A stretch of DNA of 64,000 bases, taken from Labia minor. Lineage: Eukaryota; Arthropoda; Insecta; Dermaptera; Spongiphoridae. The DNA lies in contig OY720344.1 of the NCBI GenBank assembly GCA_963082975.1, positions 36,200,033 through 36,264,032 of the forward strand. The letters run 5' to 3'. Position numbers and translations under genes: made by a program. Under the pieces are notes generated by a model that searched no databases, was not told where the DNA came from, and saw only the letters and a list, made by a program, of their open reading frames with translations. Shown in pieces: positions 4,831-61,059 of this stretch (position 1 is the stretch's first letter; every line of letters starts with the position of its first letter).

Positions 4831-6929
4831 TATCTTTTTTTTAACTTTTGTTCTTTTTCTTATTCTGTCTCTTTAGAAAGACCATCTGCATGTAAGACCC
4901 TATCTTTAAAAAGCATATTTTCTCTCTCAGACAGAGACTCAATTAATCGTTTTTTAATTTTAGGTTTCCTATCTTTGTTTTGTAATTCTAACAAATCAGA
5001 TGACCCTACCTGACATAATTTTTAACGTTCTTTTCTTTGCCTTCTTTTTAAATACCTATTTAAATTTGATTTTTTCGGTGGAATTCTGGAAAAAAAATTC
5101 TGACTAAAATGTAGAGTCAAATTTGAAATTCCTTGTATAAATTTGAGAAATACAAATATATTACAGGTAATATAGAAATTTATCTTATATTTCTCCTATA
5201 ATCTAAAAGCAATTTTGATGTATTAAACGCTTTTGTACATTCTTTAAAATTACTATAATATTAAGACTTATTTATTCACATATCCCTTATTGTTTACTAT
5301 TTGCAAGTCTTTATCTAAAATTGTGTCGAAAGAGTGATATAGGAGTGATGATTTCGTGTACGAAGTAAGTGGAACGCGTTTTACCTGTGCTTAAGAGTGA
5401 AAAATTGAACCCCAAACAATTTTATAAGACAAGGGAACTAGGCATAGGCCCAGAGTTAAATTAGATATATTTTTTAAGTAGTGTACTCTTTTAATTCTTA
5501 AAACTTACCTAATTAAATATTTAAACATTTCAACTTTATGAGATTTTACTTTATGAGATATAATTTTCCATAAGCAATATCACCCACATCAGCTTTACAA
5601 TATCCGAACCCGAGTTAGGGGTATTGCTGAAAAGTTGACTTTTTTAATTTTGTAGTTCTTAGTTTAAGAATAAAACTGAAATTTTTACCTAAAAAGTCCT
5701 AGGTACCATTAACACAAATAATCATGTCATAATAGGTATTATTGTTAGAAGTAGTATAAATAAGTCTAAGCAGTAATGTGTGACAATTATTGTATGATCT
5801 GAAAAGATATCCCCTCCCAAAAAAAAATAGGTATTAGTGAATCCAATTAATTAAATTAATAAAATTAATAGGTGTAAGCAATTCTGCAAAAGAATTTGTA
5901 ATATACTATTATAAACTATACCTATATAAAAATAATTACTTTCGATTATTTATTCAAAATTAATTTAATTAAATCTTTTCAAAAATCTTGAGATGGAAGA
6001 CATCATAAGGAGTTTATAGTAATAAAAAAATTGTTTACTTGAAAGAGAGTATAAATTTTAAGATTAAAAATAATTGACATTTATTAAGGATTAACTTCTT
6101 AAAAAAAACTAGATACTTCCAGATAAATAAACTAGGTTGAATTGAATTTGAATTTTTTTTAAGTCTATTTTTATTTTAAAATTCCCATAATTCATAAATT
6201 ATAGTTAACAAAAATATGTTAATATAATAATTGATTACATTAAAAAAATGGAATTTGTTAATACAATGTATCTTGATAAATTGAACCTACGGGAGAAATA
6301 GGATAGTATTACTCTCTATCTTAATTTTTAATTCGCTTGAATTAAATTTATGGTGTCATATATCATATCCATGTTGGTTGCTGGTTGGGTGTTTGACCTT
6401 TCTCAATTAAATACATTTAAGTGAAATGACTAATGAAATAGATCAGATGTTTAATTCTGTATATTGATATTTATTTAATAAACAAACGATTATTATAAAT
6501 AATTAAAAAAATATAATAAAGGAAAATAAGTCACATAGTATTCGAATAATATTAGACTAGATAAAAATAATTATTATTATAAGTTGTCAATTTAATCAAG
6601 GGGATAACAGTCTTAAAAATAGTCCTTTCTAAGAAACTATTAAATTAACTATGAAAATATTAAAGTATATAAAATTTTCTTATAACCTCTTATATAAACT
6701 GACGGAAAAAAATGTTTACACCAAGAAGAAGATGAGCTTGGTAAACATAAAACATGTGGATGCTTGCGTGAAAATCGTGTAGTGTACATCGGTTATTAGG
6801 ATGTCATTATTTCACATTTGAATTGCCCCTTCACTTGCGCATTCGTTTACCTTTGAAACACTGACCTATCAAACAAATATACTGACGATAATAATGAATT
6901 AAAATAATTAAAATTAGTCAAAGTATATG
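4831..6929. other. AT-rich spacer, nothing recognised
   Basis: I see no exon, RNA gene or transposon terminus. Open frames here are low-complexity Phe/Leu/Ser/Lys translations of T-rich or A-rich DNA. Confidence 0.4.
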
Positions 6930-7699
6930 CCTACTTCCAGTGGCGCAACCAGGATTTGATCCTGGGGGGGGTTTTGACTAGCCGCTCCACCTTCCTATGC
7001 CCCTCCCCCCCCCCCGGTCTGTCTCAAAGACAAATTTTCATTAAGATTTTTTTTTTATATTAAATATTTAAAAAAGTTTTGTAAATGAAACACTGATTTT
7101 ACAAAATCTGCCAAAAAAATTTAATTTTGTATTTTATTTACTCGTATTAACAGTTTTAGAAAGAAAATATTTTTTCCAGCTATAAGTAAATCATTTTAGC
7201 TTTCCTCATGGAATGAGGATAGCTTATACGATGGTCGGAAAATTTTGAAAATTTTTTCTCCGAGATTATTCGAGATTTCCACTTTTCAGACGGTTCTGAA
7301 TCCAAAACTGCAAAAAAATTTTTTTGAACCGGCCGGCCGTTCGTTACCGAGATTACCGACAATTATAGACAAAATGAGATATTGTCTTGAAATTTGATAT
7401 TTAGATGTTTTTTTTTGCGAATGTTGGGCGGGGATTGGATTGTTTTTGGACAAGATCGGACCATAAGTAAGGTTAGTTTAATCCCTAATTTTTTTAAAGT
7501 ATCAAAGCACATTTTATTGATTTTCTCAATAAATACCGATTTTTATGAGAATTATACTATCGTATTAAATTTATAGGCAATCGAATTTACTAAAAGTTTC
7601 ATTATATTCATTTTTACCTAAACATAATAATAAAGGAGTTATTTATAAAAAACTACTTTAAGATTTCGAAATCTTTTCGTCCGTCCGTAGTGGCAGGAT

Positions 7700-8905
7700 A
7701 TTTTGAAAGAAATCATGTAAAAATCCCTAAGAAAAAATCCCTAAGTAAAATATCTCTAAAAAAATAAATCTCTAAATAAAAAATTTCCCTAATTTTTTTT
7801 ACTTATTTAATAATGAATAGCCGAAGAGACTTGAATAAGGTAGTTATACATCATGCTTGGTGTCATCACATCTGTTCCATCTGGTTTTTTAGCGTCCCAT
7901 TTTTCATGGTTTGCCTTCATTATGGTCAGAAGCTCATCATGCGAGTCGCGGAATCGTTTCCTTGGTGGATCAGGCTTCTTACCACGAACATCACGACAGA
8001 TTTCCAAAGAGATAAGGTTATGCTCAATATGGATTTGCTTAATCAGGTCCCATACAGATGTCTTTTTACCTCCTAAGCGTGAACGAAGAGCATTGTTGTA
8101 ACCTTCCAATGAATTGTTTGTTCGAGGCAAACTCATCAAAGTGGCATCGTAGATGTTCCAATGTTCCAATGTCGAATTCGGGGTCATAAAAGCCAGCCAA
8201 AAATTGTTCACCTAGCCAAGTGCGCTCGAAGTAAGAAAAAAGATCACGAATTTTTACCCTGTTGGTCGTCCGGCTAATGCTTGGTAGGCTACAATGACTT
8301 TTGATGGTGGTACCAAAACCAAAGCTGCAAGAGTTCGTAAATGAGTGGAGTTGTCTATACCATTATAGAGCTTCAAAACTTCTGGCATTGATTTGATGTT
8401 TCTATAAATGCATTGAGCAAAATGAAAAAGACAACCTCTGATGATAGTAAATTTCACAAATTGCGTTATATATTCCCTGGAGAAATATACGGTGCAAATG
8501 GTGTATTTTGTATTTGGAATCATTAAGCTATTAAAACGTATGCTAATAAACGGAATTTGAGTAAATTCCCTTTATTTTACATACGAATTTGACATCCCTA
8601 AATCATGTGTGTGGGCCCTATGTATGTATTTTTTGACCTATATTTCCCTACTTTCGGTCCAGGCCTGTTTACCTCCTTGGGAGGTCGTGTCTCAGGCAAC
8701 TGGGTGTCATGCTCACCTTGTATTTAAATTTTCTTAATCATAATTAAAATTAATACAAAAATGAAAAATTTTGATTTTAGTGATTTTTTCTTTTTGGGAT
8801 TTTTTCAGTCAATGATATTTTTATTCAGGGATTTTCGGTCTTAGGGATTTTTCTTTTTAGGGATTTTTGACTGGATTTTTTCCTTTAGGGATTTTTACCC
8901 GTTTC
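7700..8905 (-). mobile_element. MULE (Mutator-like) relic flanked by inverted AGGGATTTTT arrays
   Basis: The transposase remnant at 7807-8523 is bracketed by arrays of a short motif: AAAAATCCCTAAG repeated at about 7718-7800 and the inverted form AGGGATTTTT repeated at about 8835-8905. Together they look like subterminal repeats of a foldback or Mutator-like element. Exact ends and a 9-bp target duplication could not be fixed. The whole block sits inside the hAT element 6938-10233. Confidence 0.6.
7807..8523 (-). pseudogene. MULE transposase fragment (frameshifted)
   Basis: Two minus-strand frames belong to one protein. The upstream piece (8254-8523) contains GCLFHFAQCIYRNI and, later, ALVLVPPSKVIVAY. 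The downstream piece (7807-8211) contains LPRTNNSLEGYNNAL and the WDLI-Q segment. These are consecutive signatures of the MULE transposase catalytic domain, in the correct order. The join near 8211-8256 needs a frameshift: the alternative frame there reads FSYFERTWLGEQF, also MULE-like. The N-terminal DNA-binding part and the first catalytic region are absent, so this is a dead fragment. Confidence 0.75.
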
Positions 8906-32246: not shown

Positions 32247-33298
32247 TTAGGTTGTCAAGGATGAAATTTGTAGCTAGTAATATGGCCAACCTTAATAGCT
32301 TATAACTTGACATTGGCTGAATATTTTACCGTTATTTTTTTTTTCTGTCAATTTACACAGCTTGCTTGTTTGAAAGAATTATTATAATCCCTAAAAAGTG
32401 TAAAACGGTTTTTTTTAAATCAATTTTGTTTAAAATGGAAAGGTCCGAAATTCGAACAATTATGAAGTATGAGTTCCTACGTGGAAATACGGCGTCGCAG
32501 GCCACGCGAAACATTAATACTGTATTTGGCTCTAGTGTTACTACGCAACAGACAGTATCTAATTGGTTCGCTAAATTTCGAACAGGTAACTTTGACCTCG
32601 CAAATGAGCCTCGCGGTCGCCCGAAATCAAAGGTGAATAATGACGATCTAAAGGTCACAGTTGAGTCTGACCCATCCCAAAGTGCATATGAATTATCACT
32701 AAAGTTTGGTGTTACCAAACAAACAATATTGACTCATTTAGCGCAAATCGGGAAGGTGAAAAAGTTGGATAAGTGGGTTCCACGCAGGTGTAATCCATTA
32801 TGAGTTCATGAAACCTGGCTCATCGATTACAGCAGACATATACTGCAACCAATTGGACGAAATGATGCAAAAACTTAAAGAAAAACAGCCCAGATTGGTC
32901 AACAGATCGACACCTATCCTTTTGCATGATAACGCTAGACCACACACTGCACAAATGACTGTGGCAAAGATACAGGAATTGGAGTAGGAACTTCTCCATC
33001 ATCCACCATACTCACCAGACCAAGCCCCCACTGACTACCACTTCTTCCGAAATTTGGACAACTTCTTGATAGGAAAAAAGTTTAATTCCGATAATGCAGT
33101 TAAACTGGCCTTCCAGGAATTCATTGACTCCCGTTTACCAGGGTTTTATACTAACGGCCTGAATAACCTCCCACTTAAATGGCAAAAGTGTGTAGACAAT
33201 ATGGGTGCATACTTCGATGATTAGAATAACTCCTTATGTTTGTAAGTTATCAATAAACTTTGTGTTTTTTTCTACAAATTTCATACTTGACGACCTGA
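32247..33298 (+). mobile_element. Mariner element with intact TIRs and central deletion
   Basis: Terminal inverted repeats TTAGGTTGTCAAGGATGAAA and, inverted, TCAGGTCGTCAAGTATGAAA bound the element, each flanked by a TA. Length is 1052 bp against the usual 1.25-1.3 kb. It encodes a broken transposase (32435-33224). TIR divergence is low, so the insertion looks younger than the other mariner relics here. Confidence 0.9.
32435..33224 (+). pseudogene. Mariner transposase pseudogene
   Basis: The N-terminal helix-turn-helix half is intact from MERSEIRTIMKY through QQTVSNWFAKFRTGNF and PRGRPKS (first 122 codons), then hits a stop near 32801. After a deletion that removes the first catalytic Asp region, the frame resumes with LLHDNARPHTAQ (second Asp) and HHPPYSPDQAPTDYHFF (third Asp). 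The last part ends in GAYFDD. An additional in-frame stop lies between these two motifs. Without the first Asp and with two stops it cannot make active DD34D transposase. Confidence 0.9.
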
Positions 33299-38342: not shown

Positions 38343-39406
38343 CTAATCTTGATGAGGCTTTAATGGAGAATTTGCTGGGAAAGTCGAAAAGACTCGATGA
38401 GATGTATTCTCTTCCGACTCAAAGAATGTATGATAATCATCTTCATTTAATTTCTTGGCTAAGAAATAAATTTCAGCTAAAGCGATTATTAGGGCACACA
38501 TGACTCCAAGTAAAATTCGAAAACCAAAATCTAAGGATCCAACTATTAATTCCACACCAATAAATCCAAAAGCGAAGCCAGCCGCAACAGAGAATACAAA
38601 CTGTGCCACAGCAATTAATTGACGATTAATTTGTTTCACTAAAAACAAAATATATAAATAAATATTAAGATTAAACGATTTATTTATTAAAGGGATTATA
38701 TTAATCAGAATTGCTTAGATATTTATATTAATTCAAATATCACTTATTGAAAAGAAAATGTACATTGTATAAATTTATACTTTAATTACTACTTTAAAAG
38801 TAGCCTTGAGAACATTAATCAGAAAAGGTTTATTCATAAAATCACATTTCCAAACAAGCTTGTTTTTATTTTACAAAATAATATTTTAAATAACCTTAAA
38901 TTAAGATTAAAATATCTTTTAATTTAAAAAAAATTAGGATTTAGTTGAAAATAAATAAAACAAAACATGGTACCTTGATAAGCAATTGTATCCTCTGGAT
39001 GTCTGTGACGTCGGCAATCGACATTTTTTGTCATTGCATGATAATCTCTACTATTTTGTTCTTCTCGTAATCGTTGGACGCGTGCTTCTAATTGAGGATC
39101 CCGAGGTAATCGAATTGGTTCGGGCAATTGAACCTCTGAGCCATCCACGAGTTCATGGAGCCAAAAATTAGAATTTTCTTCTGCTTGGATAAGTGAGGTT
39201 ATAGACTTGGCAGGCATTCTTTTATGAAGCCATCGGAGATCTGAGATTTCAAGGAGAGTTTCTGAGTTGTTAATAAGTTCTTTAAGACGAGCGGGCAAAG
39301 TCGGTTCCGATGAATAAGTTTCTTGAATAAAATGTCTCAATTGAGATGCAGGTTTTAGCCTGATGGTGCCATCCACATTTGAAACCAGACGTCCTTCAGT
39401 GGCCAT
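38343..39406 (-). CDS. TMEM199/Vma12-like V-ATPase assembly factor
   Basis: Two exons, 38974-39406 and 38343-38638, join in phase 1 to give 242 residues (human TMEM199 has about 208). The N-terminal cytosolic part contains the family signature LRWLHKRMP at residues about 57-65 and RDPQLEARVQRLREEQNSRDY at about 100-120. Exon 2 encodes two membrane helices (LIAVAQFVFSVAAGFAFGFI and LLGVMCALIIALAEIYFL) and a cytosolic tail. In yeast and vertebrates this protein sits in the ER with Vma21/Vma22 partners and assembles the V0 sector of the V-ATPase. The start is the first ATG after a strong polypyrimidine tract and AG (39414-39415), only 7 nt before it, implying a 5'-UTR intron, trans-splicing, or splicing from the BLOC1S5 gene just upstream. 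Confidence 0.93.
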
Positions 39407-39413
39407 TGCGATT

Positions 39414-39804
39414 CTAAAAATAAAAAAAAACGAATATATATTTTAAATTGAATTAAATAGATTTTTATTCAATTCTCAATTGAAATTCCAGTAATATAAC
39501 ACGTTTAAAATTCAGGCTCTACCAGAAAATTTATCAAATCTATTTTTAGTTAAAGAAAGAATTAAAAGTATTGTTTAAAATATATAAGATATTTCAAGTT
39601 GATCATTTATTAATCAATTATTATGAATAATTAAAAAGAATAAGATAAGTTTTTATCATATCTTTGAATCAAAAATTAAAATTAATAAAATTGTTTATTT
39701 AAATATATAAAATAAAATATTTATTGAATTTTTATTTGTTATTTATATTTGGAGTGGAATATATCTTTAGGATTGTGAAAACATATGCAAACAAATAATT
39801 TACC
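39414..39804 (-). other. Possible intercistronic intron between BLOC1S5 and TMEM199
   Basis: On the minus strand the BLOC1S5 stop TAA is followed directly by G|GTAAAT (donor at 39804/39803). The next gene's ATG is preceded by a 16-nt pyrimidine tract and AG at 39415-39414. If these are used, 388 nt are removed and stop and start codons come to lie 8 nt apart in one mRNA. The sites are seen; their use is inferred. AATAAA-like motifs also occur in between, so separate transcripts are equally possible. Confidence 0.35.
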
Positions 39805-40772
39805 TTAATTGGTAATATGTAATTTGTCTTCAAGATCACTATAAAAATGACGTAGTTCTTCTTCTTTTTCTAAAAAAGTTTGATCTACTTTGGAGCAAGT
39901 AGTTGTCATATCACCAATAAATTTTTCCCATTCAGCACGACGCAAATCTCGGTGTTTTTGTAGATCAAGTGTCTGTGAAAATATAAATTTAATATTATTT
40001 AGGTAAAAATAATACATGGATAGTAAATTGATGTAAAATGAATATATAACGGTATTCTATTAAGAGAAATTGGTTTATTGACATTGTATCTAATTTTGTC
40101 TTACAACTAATTTTGTTGTTTTGAATGAATGAATTTATGGAAAATATTAATAAACAGAATATTTTAAAAGAATATGTCAAAAATAAATTCATCTTGTACT
40201 TTGATGAATAAATATATAAATTTTAAAGAAAGAAAAATAAAAATGACTGTTTAAATGGATTTTTCCTAAAAGATAATATATTATTAGTAATAATAAGAAT
40301 AGTAGAGAAATTTACCTTTTGATTCTGTTGTTCTTTTTCGACAATTCGATTGCACATACTCAAGGCAACCTCTAGATTAGCGTTGAGGTTAGGAATGTGA
40401 ACATCAGATGCGAGTTTCACTCGCTCCACCTGACTATCTTTAATATCCGAAACTTTTTCAAAAAAATCAAACAAATTTTCAATTTCTCGATCTTGTCGTT
40501 TTTCCTTTGAAAAATTACATTACAATAAAATATTTATCAGTTTAAAAACAATGCATTTAAATTCATAAAGTTATTTAATTATTTATTTATTTACACAAAT
40601 ACCTCAAATTCTTTTAAAAAATATTTTATCTCTCCATTTAGAAATGGTTTATGATCAAAAAGTCTAGACCAAATTTCCCCTACATCTGAAAATAAATATA
40701 AAAACAATTAAAAAAAAATAATTAAATATACATCTCATTTTTATTTTTTCAACCTTTAATCACGTTTTCCAT
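39805..40772 (-). CDS. BLOC-1 subunit 5 (Muted homologue)
   Basis: Four exons with consistent phase (40754-40772, 40603-40685, 40316-40504, 39805-39972) encode 152 residues, shorter than the human 187 mainly at the N-terminus. The conserved core is clear: DVGEIWSRLFDHKPFLNGE then KYFLKEFEEKR (residues about 7-37), the family's diagnostic block, followed by predicted coiled coil with Glu/Lys heptads and a C-terminal helix (WEKFIGDMTTTCSKVDQTFL). BLOC-1 is a cytosolic octamer that sorts cargo from endosomes to lysosome-related organelles. The first exon holds only six codons plus one base and its donor (G|GTTGAA) is weak, so the N-terminus is less certain than the rest. The gene lies head-to-tail with TMEM199. 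Confidence 0.9.
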
Positions 40773-42827: not shown

Positions 42828-45800
42828 CTATAAGCAAGGTTCATGCCAAACTATTCGACCACCTAGACAACCAGACACTAATAATTTATGTAAAGGCGAA
42901 AATTTAGTACTAACTACGCTTTTAGTATGTGAACAGTAGGTAGCTAGTTCATATAGTTCACGAGGTTTTGAAGTAATTCCTTGTGGTGTGGGAACAGGAG
43001 CACAAGTGGATAATTCTTCACAAGATTTTGTGAATGAAAGTAACCGAATGCCGAATCCAAACGGAGAACAAATAATTCGACCATCCGGGGAGAAACAAAT
43101 TTCTTTTATATAACCTTTACCTACATTAGGTTCTTGTATAAAATGGGTAAGGCGAGGAATATTTTGATGTACCATCGAATGAGAAGAGCCATTGGCCTTT
43201 GTATGTACCTAAAAATAATAATTTATAATAATTTAAATATTTATATAATTATAATAAAATTATATATAATATATAATTAGTTATATAATAAAATATATTC
43301 AATATTAAAAAAAACAATTAACTTACATCTCTATTGGCTTCTCCTCGGAAATAAAAACGAGTTGCTCGCATTCGAAGGGAAGGGCTAAAAAAAATTAAGA
43401 TTCACTACATTAATTTTTAATTATTAATGTCAGCCTTGCAGATTATGAGTAAATGGAACTTTTTTTGAAATTTTAATTAAAAAAACATAAAATTACAGAT
43501 ATATATATATATATAAAGATTTTGCTATAGTTAAAAATTTCTAAACATTTTAAAACAATATAAGATTGGAATTTTTAGTCTGATTTTTATAAAAAAATTG
43601 TTTTGAAAAGAGATTCTGTCTCCAAGTATTAAGTTAAATATAAATATATCATCAATTCTTACATCTCGTCGTCATCATAAAGTCTTCGTCGGAGTGTTCC
43701 ACGACGTGCCGATGCATCTCTTAAAGCGACTAATGCTTCCCAAATATCAATTGATGAAAAATGCAATTGAATATTACTATTTGGTGAATTGGGACGTGGA
43801 GACGTGGTTGCTGATGGGGAACTGGCAGCTACCGGAGCAGCAGGAGCTGCAAAGTTTACTACGGGTGGTGTTGAAGTTGCTTGGGATCCTCCATTGCCAG
43901 AGGTTTCACCAATTGTATGTCGCCGGGGTCGACGATCACCAACAGGCGTCATTCTACTAAAAAATAATTTATCAGAATATTTATAGGAAATAGATCAATA
44001 GAAGAAAAGTTTTTATTTTAAATATCCTCTATCTCTCAACTCAAAAATCAATGGACGTAGAAATCGCATTCTTACAATAGTCCTATTCTGTTCTACCTCC
44101 AACCAATTAATTATATTTATTGTATCCAATCATTTGTAAAAGTTTTACTGAGATATTTATATTGTACAAGGTATAAATTATAAATATAAATAAATTATTA
44201 TAAATTCAAATAGGTTAATAGAAATAAAATAATTTAATAAATTTAATGATTGAGAAAAAAACTATATTGGATCATCTTAATATTCTATTTCTATTTCTCA
44301 AAATTATAATTATTATTACTGAAATATTAATACCTTGATCTTCGATGTAATATTACTCTTCTTGATTGAACATCGATATCATTTTCGTAGTGAGGTCTTG
44401 GAGGAGCAGGAGGCCATTCTCTTGTCGGCACAGTATTTTGAGATTGCGTTCTTGACGGATTTGTAACAGGCTCTTCTTTGCTTTCTTTATTTTCATCTTT
44501 TTCGCTATCTTTATCTGAATCATATTCATCGTCCTCAGCTTCACGAGAATAATCAGCTATTTCTTGAATATCATGAACACAGGTCCACTAATAAAAATGA
44601 AATTAAAAAAAATTATATAATAAAATAAAATTGTTCAAAAGTTAAAAAAAATATATATTTAAAATTTTAAAAATGATAAAAAGTTCAATTTAAAGAAACT
44701 TTTAAAACTAACTTCACTATTTTCATCACGAGAAATATTTCTTGAAACGGCACACCAGCCTTGGGGATGAATTTGAAGTGAACTGACAACTTCAGCCAAA
44801 TCATTATCAGGAAAATCTGAGATAAATTCCACTCGATTCACTGTCCTTCGTGGAGCAAAAAGGTGAGTGAAGTTGCATGCAATAGGAATCGGCCGTTCAT
44901 TAATTTGCATTAAACGATACATATTAGGCTAAAAGAAAAAGTTACCGGTGGTAAATTTTATCTTTTCGGAATAAAAGAAAGAAAATACAAATTAGAATAT
45001 AAATAATCATAATAAGGAATATTACCTTAAACCCTGCCAAGTCTTGTGCTAATGTATTGAGATTTAAATTATGAATTACTATTAAATAACCACTTGTAGT
45101 ACATATTAACATTTTACTAGCATCAGGTGATAATTTCATTCTCATTAAACCATTCGTTTGAAAAATTCGATTATATAAAAATCCTTGTTCAGTTGAACTA
45201 TTGATATCCCATGTAAAGATACATCCATCAAAACCTGATGTAACAAGAAGACCATCACGAGGGGAGTATTCAATATTTTTTACCCAGTTATTATGGCCAT
45301 ATAATGAACGGATTCTATTTTTTAAATGTCTTGAATCCCATAATGCTACTGTGTTATCGTCGCTACAAGTGGCAAACATACGTTGATCCAAAAATCTGTG
45401 AAAAATTTAATATTTATTTATTTAATATTCAGTAAAATAATAAAAACAAATTTAAAATGAAAATAAATATATAGATAACTTACCTTACACAAAAAACTAA
45501 CTAACTAAATAATAAATATAATAACTTACCTTACACAATTGACACAACCCAAATGAGCGTTTTCTATTGTATGAATATGTTTCCTTGAAAGTGGATCATA
45601 CATTAAAACACTTTTTTTCTCACAAGCAGCTGCCAGCATCGTTCTAAATATTGGAAAAAACGAAATTAATTTTAATAGAAAAAAAATATTTTACAATCCA
45701 TAATAATAATAATAATAATGAAACTATCTAAAAAAATTAAGTCAATTTCAATTCTTTGATGTTATTTTGAAAGTTTCTTGCAAAGAAATGATAAAACATT

Positions 45801-46302
45801 CCTTATCGTTTATTTAGTAAAATAATTTTAAAAAAAAATGTTTTAAGCTTTTTATAGTTTATAATTTATTTAAATTATATGTAAATGAAAATGAAGCATA
45901 AATTAGTGAAACGACTAGAAAAAAATATAATTATTAAATATTATTAATTGTTTTTAATTAACTGCACTCGAAAAACTAAATATTAATTTTCCCTATAATT
46001 TTAATGACCAAGCAATGTTTTCTTCATATGATTTATAAAAAATAAAAATTATTTTATTTAGTTGTTTTAAATTAACAAATGATTTTAATTTTAGACATAA
46101 ATCTGATTTATATATATGTTTAATGGTCTTTGATTTCTTTTATTCAAAAGAATTCATAAACTCCATGAAAAGGATACATTCCTAAATTAAAGTATATTTA
46201 AAATAAAAAATTAAAATAATATATAAATTAATTATCAACTACGATCACAGATTAATTGGTATTATAAAGAGAAGAAAACAATTTAAAAAATATTTTAATA
46301 TT

Positions 46303-46345
<43 letters not shown>

Positions 46346-46555
46346 TATCTTAAAAATGATACACAATTTATTTTATAGAAATAATTACCCATCAGGAGAG
46401 AATTCAAGATTAAAAACACCTCCATAGTCTGTAACTTCTGAATCTTGAATCCGTGATGAAGTGAATGAAGTATAAAAACTTTTTGCAATTAAGTCAGCTG
46501 TGCCCAAAGGGAATTTAAAACCCGATTCTCTTTTTCGAAGCCACGAAGCATTCAT
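42828..46555 (-). CDS. DCAF10 (WDR32) homologue, WD40 receptor of CUL4-DDB1
   Basis: Eight exons join in phase (46389-46555, 45530-45643, 45026-45395, 44713-44928, 44334-44587, 43663-43956, 43327-43384, 42828-43208) to 617 residues (human 559). N-terminal WD repeats cover residues about 45-215, with VFNLEFSPDG, CVRFLDQRMFATCSDD-TVALWD, LYGHNNWVKNIEYSPRDG and LLVTSGFDG. A middle insert of about 190 residues is acidic then Pro/Ser/Ala/Arg-rich. The last repeats return at residues 500-617 with VGKGYIKEICFSPDGR, FGFGIRLLSF and SPLHKLLVSGCLGGR. The order and motifs match DCAF10, which recruits substrates to CUL4-DDB1 ubiquitin ligases. The largest intron (45644-46388) carries an (AT)n tract. Confidence 0.93.
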
Positions 46556-59597: not shown

Positions 59598-60134
59598 ATG
59601 ACTGAAGAGAGTGAACCAGGTTTTTCCAATAAGACTCAAGATGATACCAATAAAGATGACAGATCACTTTTTGATTGCATTATTTGTCAAAATACTGCCA
59701 AAAATATAGTTGTTAGCAAATGTGGGCATCTATTTTGCTGGCCATGTCTGTATCAATGGTTAGAAACAAGACCTAATAATAAAAGGTGTCCACTTTGCAA
59801 AATGGCAATAGGCAAAGATAAAGTAATTCCACTTTATGGATGTGGAAGTACCAAAGAAGAAGATCCACGAAATTCACTACCTCCACGCCCTTCTGGACAA
59901 AGAATTGAGCCTGAAACGAATAGGGGATTCCCTTTTGGCAATAGAGAAAATAGATTCCATATGTTTTTTCGTATTGGTGCCTACTCTTTTAGTTCTGTTT
60001 CATCTTCCTTTAATTTTGGCGAACCTCGGCGTAATACTACTCCTAGAGGAACTTCCCAATATGAAGAAGGACTATTTATAAAAGTGTTTGTGTGGGTTGT
60101 AATCATCATAATATTTTGGCTTCTATTGACATAG
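59598..60134 (+). CDS. RNF185/RNF5-like membrane RING E3 ligase, intronless
   Basis: A single open frame of 178 residues. The RING finger has all eight zinc ligands: C27, C30, C42, H44, C47, C50, C64 and C67, in the family context CGHLFCWPCLYQWLETRP. DKVIPLYGCGSTKEEDPR and PPRPSGQR follow, then a Phe/Gly/Ser-rich linker and a C-terminal membrane helix (VFVWVVIIIIFWLLL) ending in LLT. RNF185/RNF5 are tail-anchored ER ubiquitin ligases in ER-associated degradation. Vertebrate orthologues have several introns, so an intronless copy suggests a retrogene. It has no stops or frameshifts and the key residues are conserved, so it may be active. A decayed inverted copy lies at 60660-61059. Confidence 0.88.
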   Translation: MTEESEPGFSNKTQDDTNKDDRSLFDCIICQNTAKNIVVSKCGHLFCWPCLYQWLETRPNNKRCPLCKMAIGKDKVIPLYGCGSTKEEDPRNSLPPRPSGQRIEPETNRGFPFGNRENRFHMFFRIGAYSFSSVSSSFNFGEPRRNTTPRGTSQYEEGLFIKVFVWVVIIIIFWLLLT

Positions 60135-60659: not shown

Positions 60660-61059
60660 TTCCACTCAAACAAACACTGTTCTAAAGAATCTTTCTTCAT
60701 ATTGGCGTGTTCCTTTAGGAGCAGGCTTACTTAAATTTAAATGAAATTGATACAGATCCAAAAGAAAAGGCACCAATACGTAATGACATGAAATCCACTT
60801 TCTCCATTGTCAAATGGAAATCTCACATTCGTTTTAGTTTGTCCAGAAAGGCGTGGATCTTCTTGTTTGGTATTTCCACATCCATAAGTGGAATTATATT
60901 TTCTTTGCCTTTTGCTGTTTTTCAAACTGGACACCTTTGATCTAATGGTCACTAAACACTTGCTAACAACTGCATCTTTGACAGTATTTTGTCAAATATT
61001 GCAATCAAAAAGTGATCTGTCATCTTTTTCGAAGAATCTGTTTCACTGTCTTCAGCTAT
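60660..61059 (-). pseudogene. Decayed inverted copy of the RNF185-like gene
   Basis: The minus strand aligns with the intact gene 59598-60134: GATGACAGATCACTTTTTGA near 61015, then TTGACAAAATACTG (Cys codon now a stop, TGA), VVSKC, and after a deletion of the central RING (GHLFCWPC and following) STYGCGNTKQEDPR, SGQ and FPFDNGESGFHV. Stops, indels and loss of the second zinc-ligand pair show it is dead. Neither copy has introns. The membrane-helix part is also scrambled. Confidence 0.85.

Follow-up and report, generated by a model that had tools for sequence, protein, structure and literature searches.

The genes for BLOC1S5 and TMEM199, two proteins of acidic organelles, are neighbors in the 64,000-nucleotide stretch of DNA that we analyzed (hereafter the window). 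They quite likely constitute one transcription unit that is expressed as a single two-gene mRNA and that would correspond to the muted/CG7071 pair of Drosophila. We infer this message and the way it is spliced from the two genes, their order, their reading frames, and the sequences of their splice sites. The idea that the pair might be dicistronic had been raised in the earlier note, and it is well supported by the strong splice sites paired across the spacer, by the absence of any competing spacer donor with a score of at least 2.5, by the separate reading frames, and by the Drosophila counterpart. What we describe is probably an old two-gene message encountered in another arthropod and not a new mechanism. 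The window belongs to a genome of 604 Mb in 71 contigs.

Both genes are encoded on the minus strand. BLOC1S5 consists of four coding exons and specifies a protein of 152 amino acids, which matches the Pfam family Muted (PF14942) with an E-value of 2.1e-45 when the protein from exon 2 on is considered. TMEM199 possesses two coding exons and specifies a protein of 242 amino acids that matches the Pfam family Vma12 (PF11712; E-value 4.5e-30), a V-ATPase assembly factor. The genes are adjacent and unfused, with BLOC1S5 upstream, and the gap of about 400 bp that had been claimed measures 398 nt from stop to start. The coordinates of all exons, and of the intron that we propose between the two cistrons, are compiled in Table 1. 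Upstream of BLOC1S5 on the same strand lies a WD40 gene (42828-46555) for which Pfam reports WD40 repeats only; we read it as DCAF10-like, and an assignment as AMBRA1 was rejected as wrong. Elsewhere in the window, we noted an intronless RING-finger gene (59598-60134), RNF185-like by reading and perhaps a retrocopy, with a shorter inverted partial copy adjoining it (60740-60991). A mariner-like element occupies positions 32321-33221, and its first open frame carries the Pfam domain HTH_48 of the Mos1 transposase. An Rfam scan of the window at the gathering threshold returned no matches.

Table 1. Coordinates of the BLOC1S5 and TMEM199 exons, of the TMEM199 intron, and of the intron proposed between the two coding sequences
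Feature	Position	Strand	Remarks
BLOC1S5 coding exon 1	40754..40772	-	ATG at 40772; in-frame join MENVIK|DVGEIW
BLOC1S5 exon 2	40603..40685	-	Pfam Muted match with the protein from exon 2 on
BLOC1S5 exon 3	40316..40504	-	Pfam Muted match
BLOC1S5 exon 4	39804..39972	-	Stop TAA 39807-39805 plus one extra base, G 39804
Proposed intercistronic intron, 390 nt	39414..39803	-	GTAAAT...TTTTTAG; donor 9.34, acceptor 14.93
TMEM199 exon 1	38974..39413	-	7-nt leader AATCGCA, ATG 39406-39404; Pfam Vma12
TMEM199 intron	38639..38973	-	In the training introns
TMEM199 exon 2	38343..38638	-	Ends at stop TAG 38345-38343

Splice sites were scored with PWMs trained on the introns of three conserved genes of the window (BLOC1S5, TMEM199, and the upstream WD40 gene), and these matrices rest on 11 introns. 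The earlier note had placed the upstream site correctly: the BLOC1S5 stop codon (TAA, 39807-39805) is followed by a G (39804) and then by a GTAAAT donor that begins at 39803. This donor had been called usable, and its score of 9.34 is indeed like that of real sites; counting the donor itself, 21 of the 5108 GTs on both strands of the window reach this value. Its nine scored bases are identical to those of a genuine donor in BLOC1S5, at 40315, so that the score is flattered by the repetition of a training-set donor. On the far side of the spacer, the acceptor AG is found at 39415-39414, as had been stated; the first exon base is 39413, and the TMEM199 ATG follows 7 nt on. The score of this acceptor (14.93) is attained by three of the 5416 AGs, of which one is the site itself and another belongs to the training set. 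In a leave-one-out evaluation, the 11 true acceptors obtain scores from -0.6 to 9.9; in-sample, values of 11.1-15.1 are listed for nine of them. The site, which had been described as a textbook acceptor, is strong, but the 16-nt pyrimidine tract claimed for it is not an unbroken run and reads nine T, one A, and five T.

We then considered how often such sites lie next to starts and stops. At the scores of the candidates themselves, an acceptor is present within 20 nt of 2 of the 1919 ATGs (that of TMEM199 necessarily being one of them), and a donor within 6 nt of 19 of the 9663 stop triplets. Lowering the cut-off to the median true score gives 34/1919 ATGs and 59/9663 stop triplets, and at the weakest true score the corresponding numbers are 420/1919 and 836/9663. 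Dinucleotide shuffling of the spacer (20,000 rounds) produced a donor of the candidate's score 60 times, an acceptor of the candidate's score once, and the two together not at all; with looser cut-offs (donor 7.2, acceptor 7.0), both appeared in 7 of the 20,000 shuffles. The donor at 39803 and the TMEM199 acceptor look real, and chance would very rarely bring the two together. One could still suppose that both are splice-like sequences that remain unused, and that the genes are transcribed separately with no introns in the spacer. The genome is AT-rich and has many T tracts, and 24 AGs of the window, TMEM199's acceptor included, score at least 11, nine of them belonging to known introns; given the outcome of the joint shuffles, however, we regard a chance origin of both sites as exceedingly improbable.

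Within the spacer, the sole donor with a score of at least 2.5 is the one at 39803, so that no second cis partner of this quality is available there to the strong TMEM199 acceptor. The presence of a donor at the BLOC1S5 stop, together with the missing rival, favors a shared mRNA. The implied intron is 390 nt long; the 11 training introns span 68-745 nt. AATAAA or ATTAAA hexamers occur five times in these 390 nt (12.8 per kb) and 34 times in 2718 nt of true introns (12.5 per kb); since the densities are equal, the spacer has no excess of poly(A) signals. Its five AATAAA hexamers would permit the formation of a separate BLOC1S5 mRNA. When the genome was searched at the DNA level with positions 39300-40000 for a retrocopy of the joined mRNA, nothing was recovered beyond this locus and two weak hits, which fall in the AT-rich spacer.

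A more conventional arrangement would be two separate genes. TMEM199 would then be driven by a promoter of its own and carry a 5'UTR intron whose last base is 39414; its first exon would be located farther upstream, and the donor at the BLOC1S5 stop would either serve an intron in the BLOC1S5 3'UTR or be there by chance. Two weaker acceptors in the spacer, with first exon bases at 39661 (score 6.4) and 39518 (score 6.2), could be used by such a 3'UTR intron, and AATAAA hexamers are found downstream of both. The frequency of acceptors close to start codons was assessed at other genes of the genome. A Ras-family search gave 140 matches, of which 36 starting at profile positions 1 to 3 were chosen by eye; 10 of the 36 were dropped because they lacked an in-frame ATG within 30 residues, and 26 small-GTPase starts were kept. 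Acceptors scoring at least 4.5 were present within 20 nt of the ATG at 8 of the 26 starts, compared to 109 of 1918 control ATGs, and acceptors scoring at least 7.0 at 3 of 26, compared to 59 of 1918; none of the 26 had an acceptor as high as 14.9. Start-proximal acceptors were about five times commoner at small-GTPase ATGs than at control ATGs, and they presumably stem from 5'UTR introns, although trans-splicing may also account for them. Because acceptors of this kind are frequent here, the TMEM199 acceptor is by itself unremarkable and fits an ordinary 5'UTR intron. At the stops of other genes, used as a control for a donor after the stop, the best donor within 6 nt scored 2.6; of eight loci examined, three had a C-terminal stop that was convincing by reading, a number too small for counting. 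We nevertheless consider separate genes unlikely. Apart from 39803, the spacer holds no first-exon donor scoring at least 2.5, so the first exon of TMEM199 would need to be placed within BLOC1S5 or past it, unless a weaker donor is used. Furthermore, two unrelated coincidences would be required, and the Drosophila bicistronic unit would be left without a counterpart.

With regard to the shared message, we propose that a pre-mRNA would begin upstream of BLOC1S5 and run through TMEM199, from which the spliceosome would take out the BLOC1S5 introns, the 390-nt intercistronic intron, and the TMEM199 intron. With the intercistronic donor one base past the BLOC1S5 stop and the acceptor seven bases before the TMEM199 start, the mature mRNA would read ...TAA GAATCGCA ATG GCC... 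and contain frames of 152 and 242 codons. The claim that splicing leaves 8 nt between stop and start, with both coding sequences whole, agrees with the frames and the coordinates. On the joined message, the BLOC1S5 and TMEM199 frames differ. If one of the three preceding donors of BLOC1S5 were joined to 39413 instead, TMEM199 would be out of frame in every case, and read-through of the BLOC1S5 stop adds only 19 residues; a fusion protein is consequently not the aim of this arrangement. As a first guess, ribosomes that finish BLOC1S5 beside the TMEM199 AUG (G at -3, G at +4) would reinitiate there; alternatively, TMEM199 might be read through another route of internal initiation. Leaky scanning to TMEM199 is unlikely because, counted from the BLOC1S5 start and with BLOC1S5's own included, seven ATGs precede that of TMEM199 on the joined message. 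Reinitiation after a frame of 152 codons is usually inefficient; this and the seven preceding ATGs count against the model.

A broader and rather speculative extension of the shared message is that it is an arthropod dicistron of ancient origin, whose second gene becomes translatable through splicing. Splicing would place stop and start 8 nt apart and thereby allow reinitiation, while retention of the intron combined with use of an internal poly(A) site would yield BLOC1S5 alone; in this manner, splicing might determine how much of a BLOC-1 subunit is made relative to a V-ATPase assembly factor. Should the junction prove real, the dicistronic mRNA of Drosophila would also exist in an arthropod that is probably not a fly. 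This would suggest that the arrangement has been conserved for a long time and that there is some reason for keeping an endolysosomal subunit together with a proton-pump assembly factor. The 8-nt spacing would, in that event, allow a direct test of termination-reinitiation on an animal mRNA.

We also inspected the region around the 5' end of the putative unit. The TCACATGA/TCATGTGA motif that characterizes the Mitf/dCLEAR-regulated V-ATPase set was not found there, and no CLEAR/dCLEAR element that the two genes might share was seen close to where BLOC1S5 begins: the search returned no CACGTG, no GTCACGTGAC (2 mismatches), and no TCAYRTGA. The latter motif is absent between 34487 and 46024, an interval that spans the gene pair. 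In the window as a whole, it was seen nine times with 4.2 expected, a count reached in 2 of 100 shuffles. The looser motif TCANNTGA does occur at 39337 and 39476, with an AATT center; over the whole window, 28 such sites against an expected 21.2 do not make a clear excess. An AG is located exactly 7 nt 5' of the BLOC1S5 ATG (40781-40772), and its acceptor score is only 4.73. The WD40 gene has, roughly 150 nt ahead of its likely ATG, an acceptor-like CTTCTAG that precedes AATCATGG (46708-46701).

The acceptor in front of TMEM199 had alternatively been suggested to receive a spliced leader. The pre-mRNA would in this case be cut in two, BLOC1S5 would be polyadenylated in the spacer, and a leader would be joined at 39413. 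An acceptor that might take a leader is present before the TMEM199 start, it is strong and close to the ATG, and start-proximal acceptors are enriched at the small-GTPase genes of this genome. Nevertheless, a matching cis donor exists at 39803 as well, and the leader model leaves this donor at the BLOC1S5 stop unexplained. Leader trans-splicing is known in copepods, and two leader variants, which share a 26-nt piece, have been reported for sea lice (PMC4664967). The search of the 604-Mb genome covered only this common piece of the two leaders; even with two mismatches allowed, nothing in the genome matched it, so that the suggestion found no support. The earlier note had pointed to operons of some copepods, but a passage of a 2021 paper states that none had been reported (PMC7986045), and none of the titles and abstract openings listed by a literature search reports one. 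The mitochondrial contig (C71; 10,000 of 11,554 bases read) carries ND5, ND4, and ND4L on one strand and ND6 and CYTB on the other, followed by ND1 and rrnL; the tool named only rrnL and a tRNA, and the protein genes were identified by reading. We take this order to be the ancestral arthropod one, unlike that of sea lice, which speaks against a spliced-leader operon. A sea louse as the source of the DNA, to which AT content and transposons had pointed, is rejected because of this order and of the absent leader piece. Overall, such an operon appears to us very unlikely.

The G+C content of the mitochondrial contig, measured on the 10,000 bases that were read, is 36%, which in our judgment makes a fly unlikely. 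Between the tRNA that follows CYTB and ND1, some 2.5 kb (5520-8000) show no recognized gene; long noncoding DNA is not usual at this position, and the gene order otherwise looks ancestral. Another contig (C4) opens with repeated AACCG units, which may be a telomere with an unusual motif.

The closest parallel to the proposed message is the Drosophila muted (CG34131)/CG7071 unit, in which the same two protein families occur in the same order as two unfused frames. We equate CG34131 with muted, and the two papers cited next are consistent with this assumption. In the table of conserved upstream frames by Hayden and Bosco, CG7071 and CG34131 are "annotated as producing the same transcript" (FBtr0084211); CG34131 is the upstream frame, with 157 amino acids, and an EST from Lutzomyia longipalpis is placed beside the pair (PMC2276209). 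Lovero and colleagues refer to CG7071 as homologous to Tmem199, and a figure legend there calls muted "part of a bi-cistronic transcriptional unit" (PMC10452791). The upstream frames are of nearly equal length (157 amino acids for Drosophila CG34131 and 152 here). The comparison with Drosophila concerns gene order and the shared transcript; here, a predicted intron fills the space between the frames and would leave 8 nt. A dCLEAR motif is reported for Drosophila CG7071, whereas none is found near the pair studied here.

Spliced-leader operons of nematodes, tunicates, and chaetognaths resemble our locus in their head-to-tail genes and in the acceptor near the downstream start, but differ from it in that a donor stands at the upstream stop here and the sea-louse leader piece is absent. 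The frames are separated by 398 nt in our window; the operon-gene medians tabulated for other organisms range from 1 to 981 bp (PMC7986045). Other dicistronic mRNAs of arthropods include MOCS2 (CG10238; PMC2276209) and the 159 dicistronic pairs counted in FlyBase; for loci with only polycistronic transcripts, stop-to-start distances of -34 to 319 nt are given (PMC4528330). These messages involve different genes, and they share with the one proposed here the property that two full proteins are encoded per processed mRNA; the predicted gap of 8 nt falls within the range of the polycistronic-only loci.
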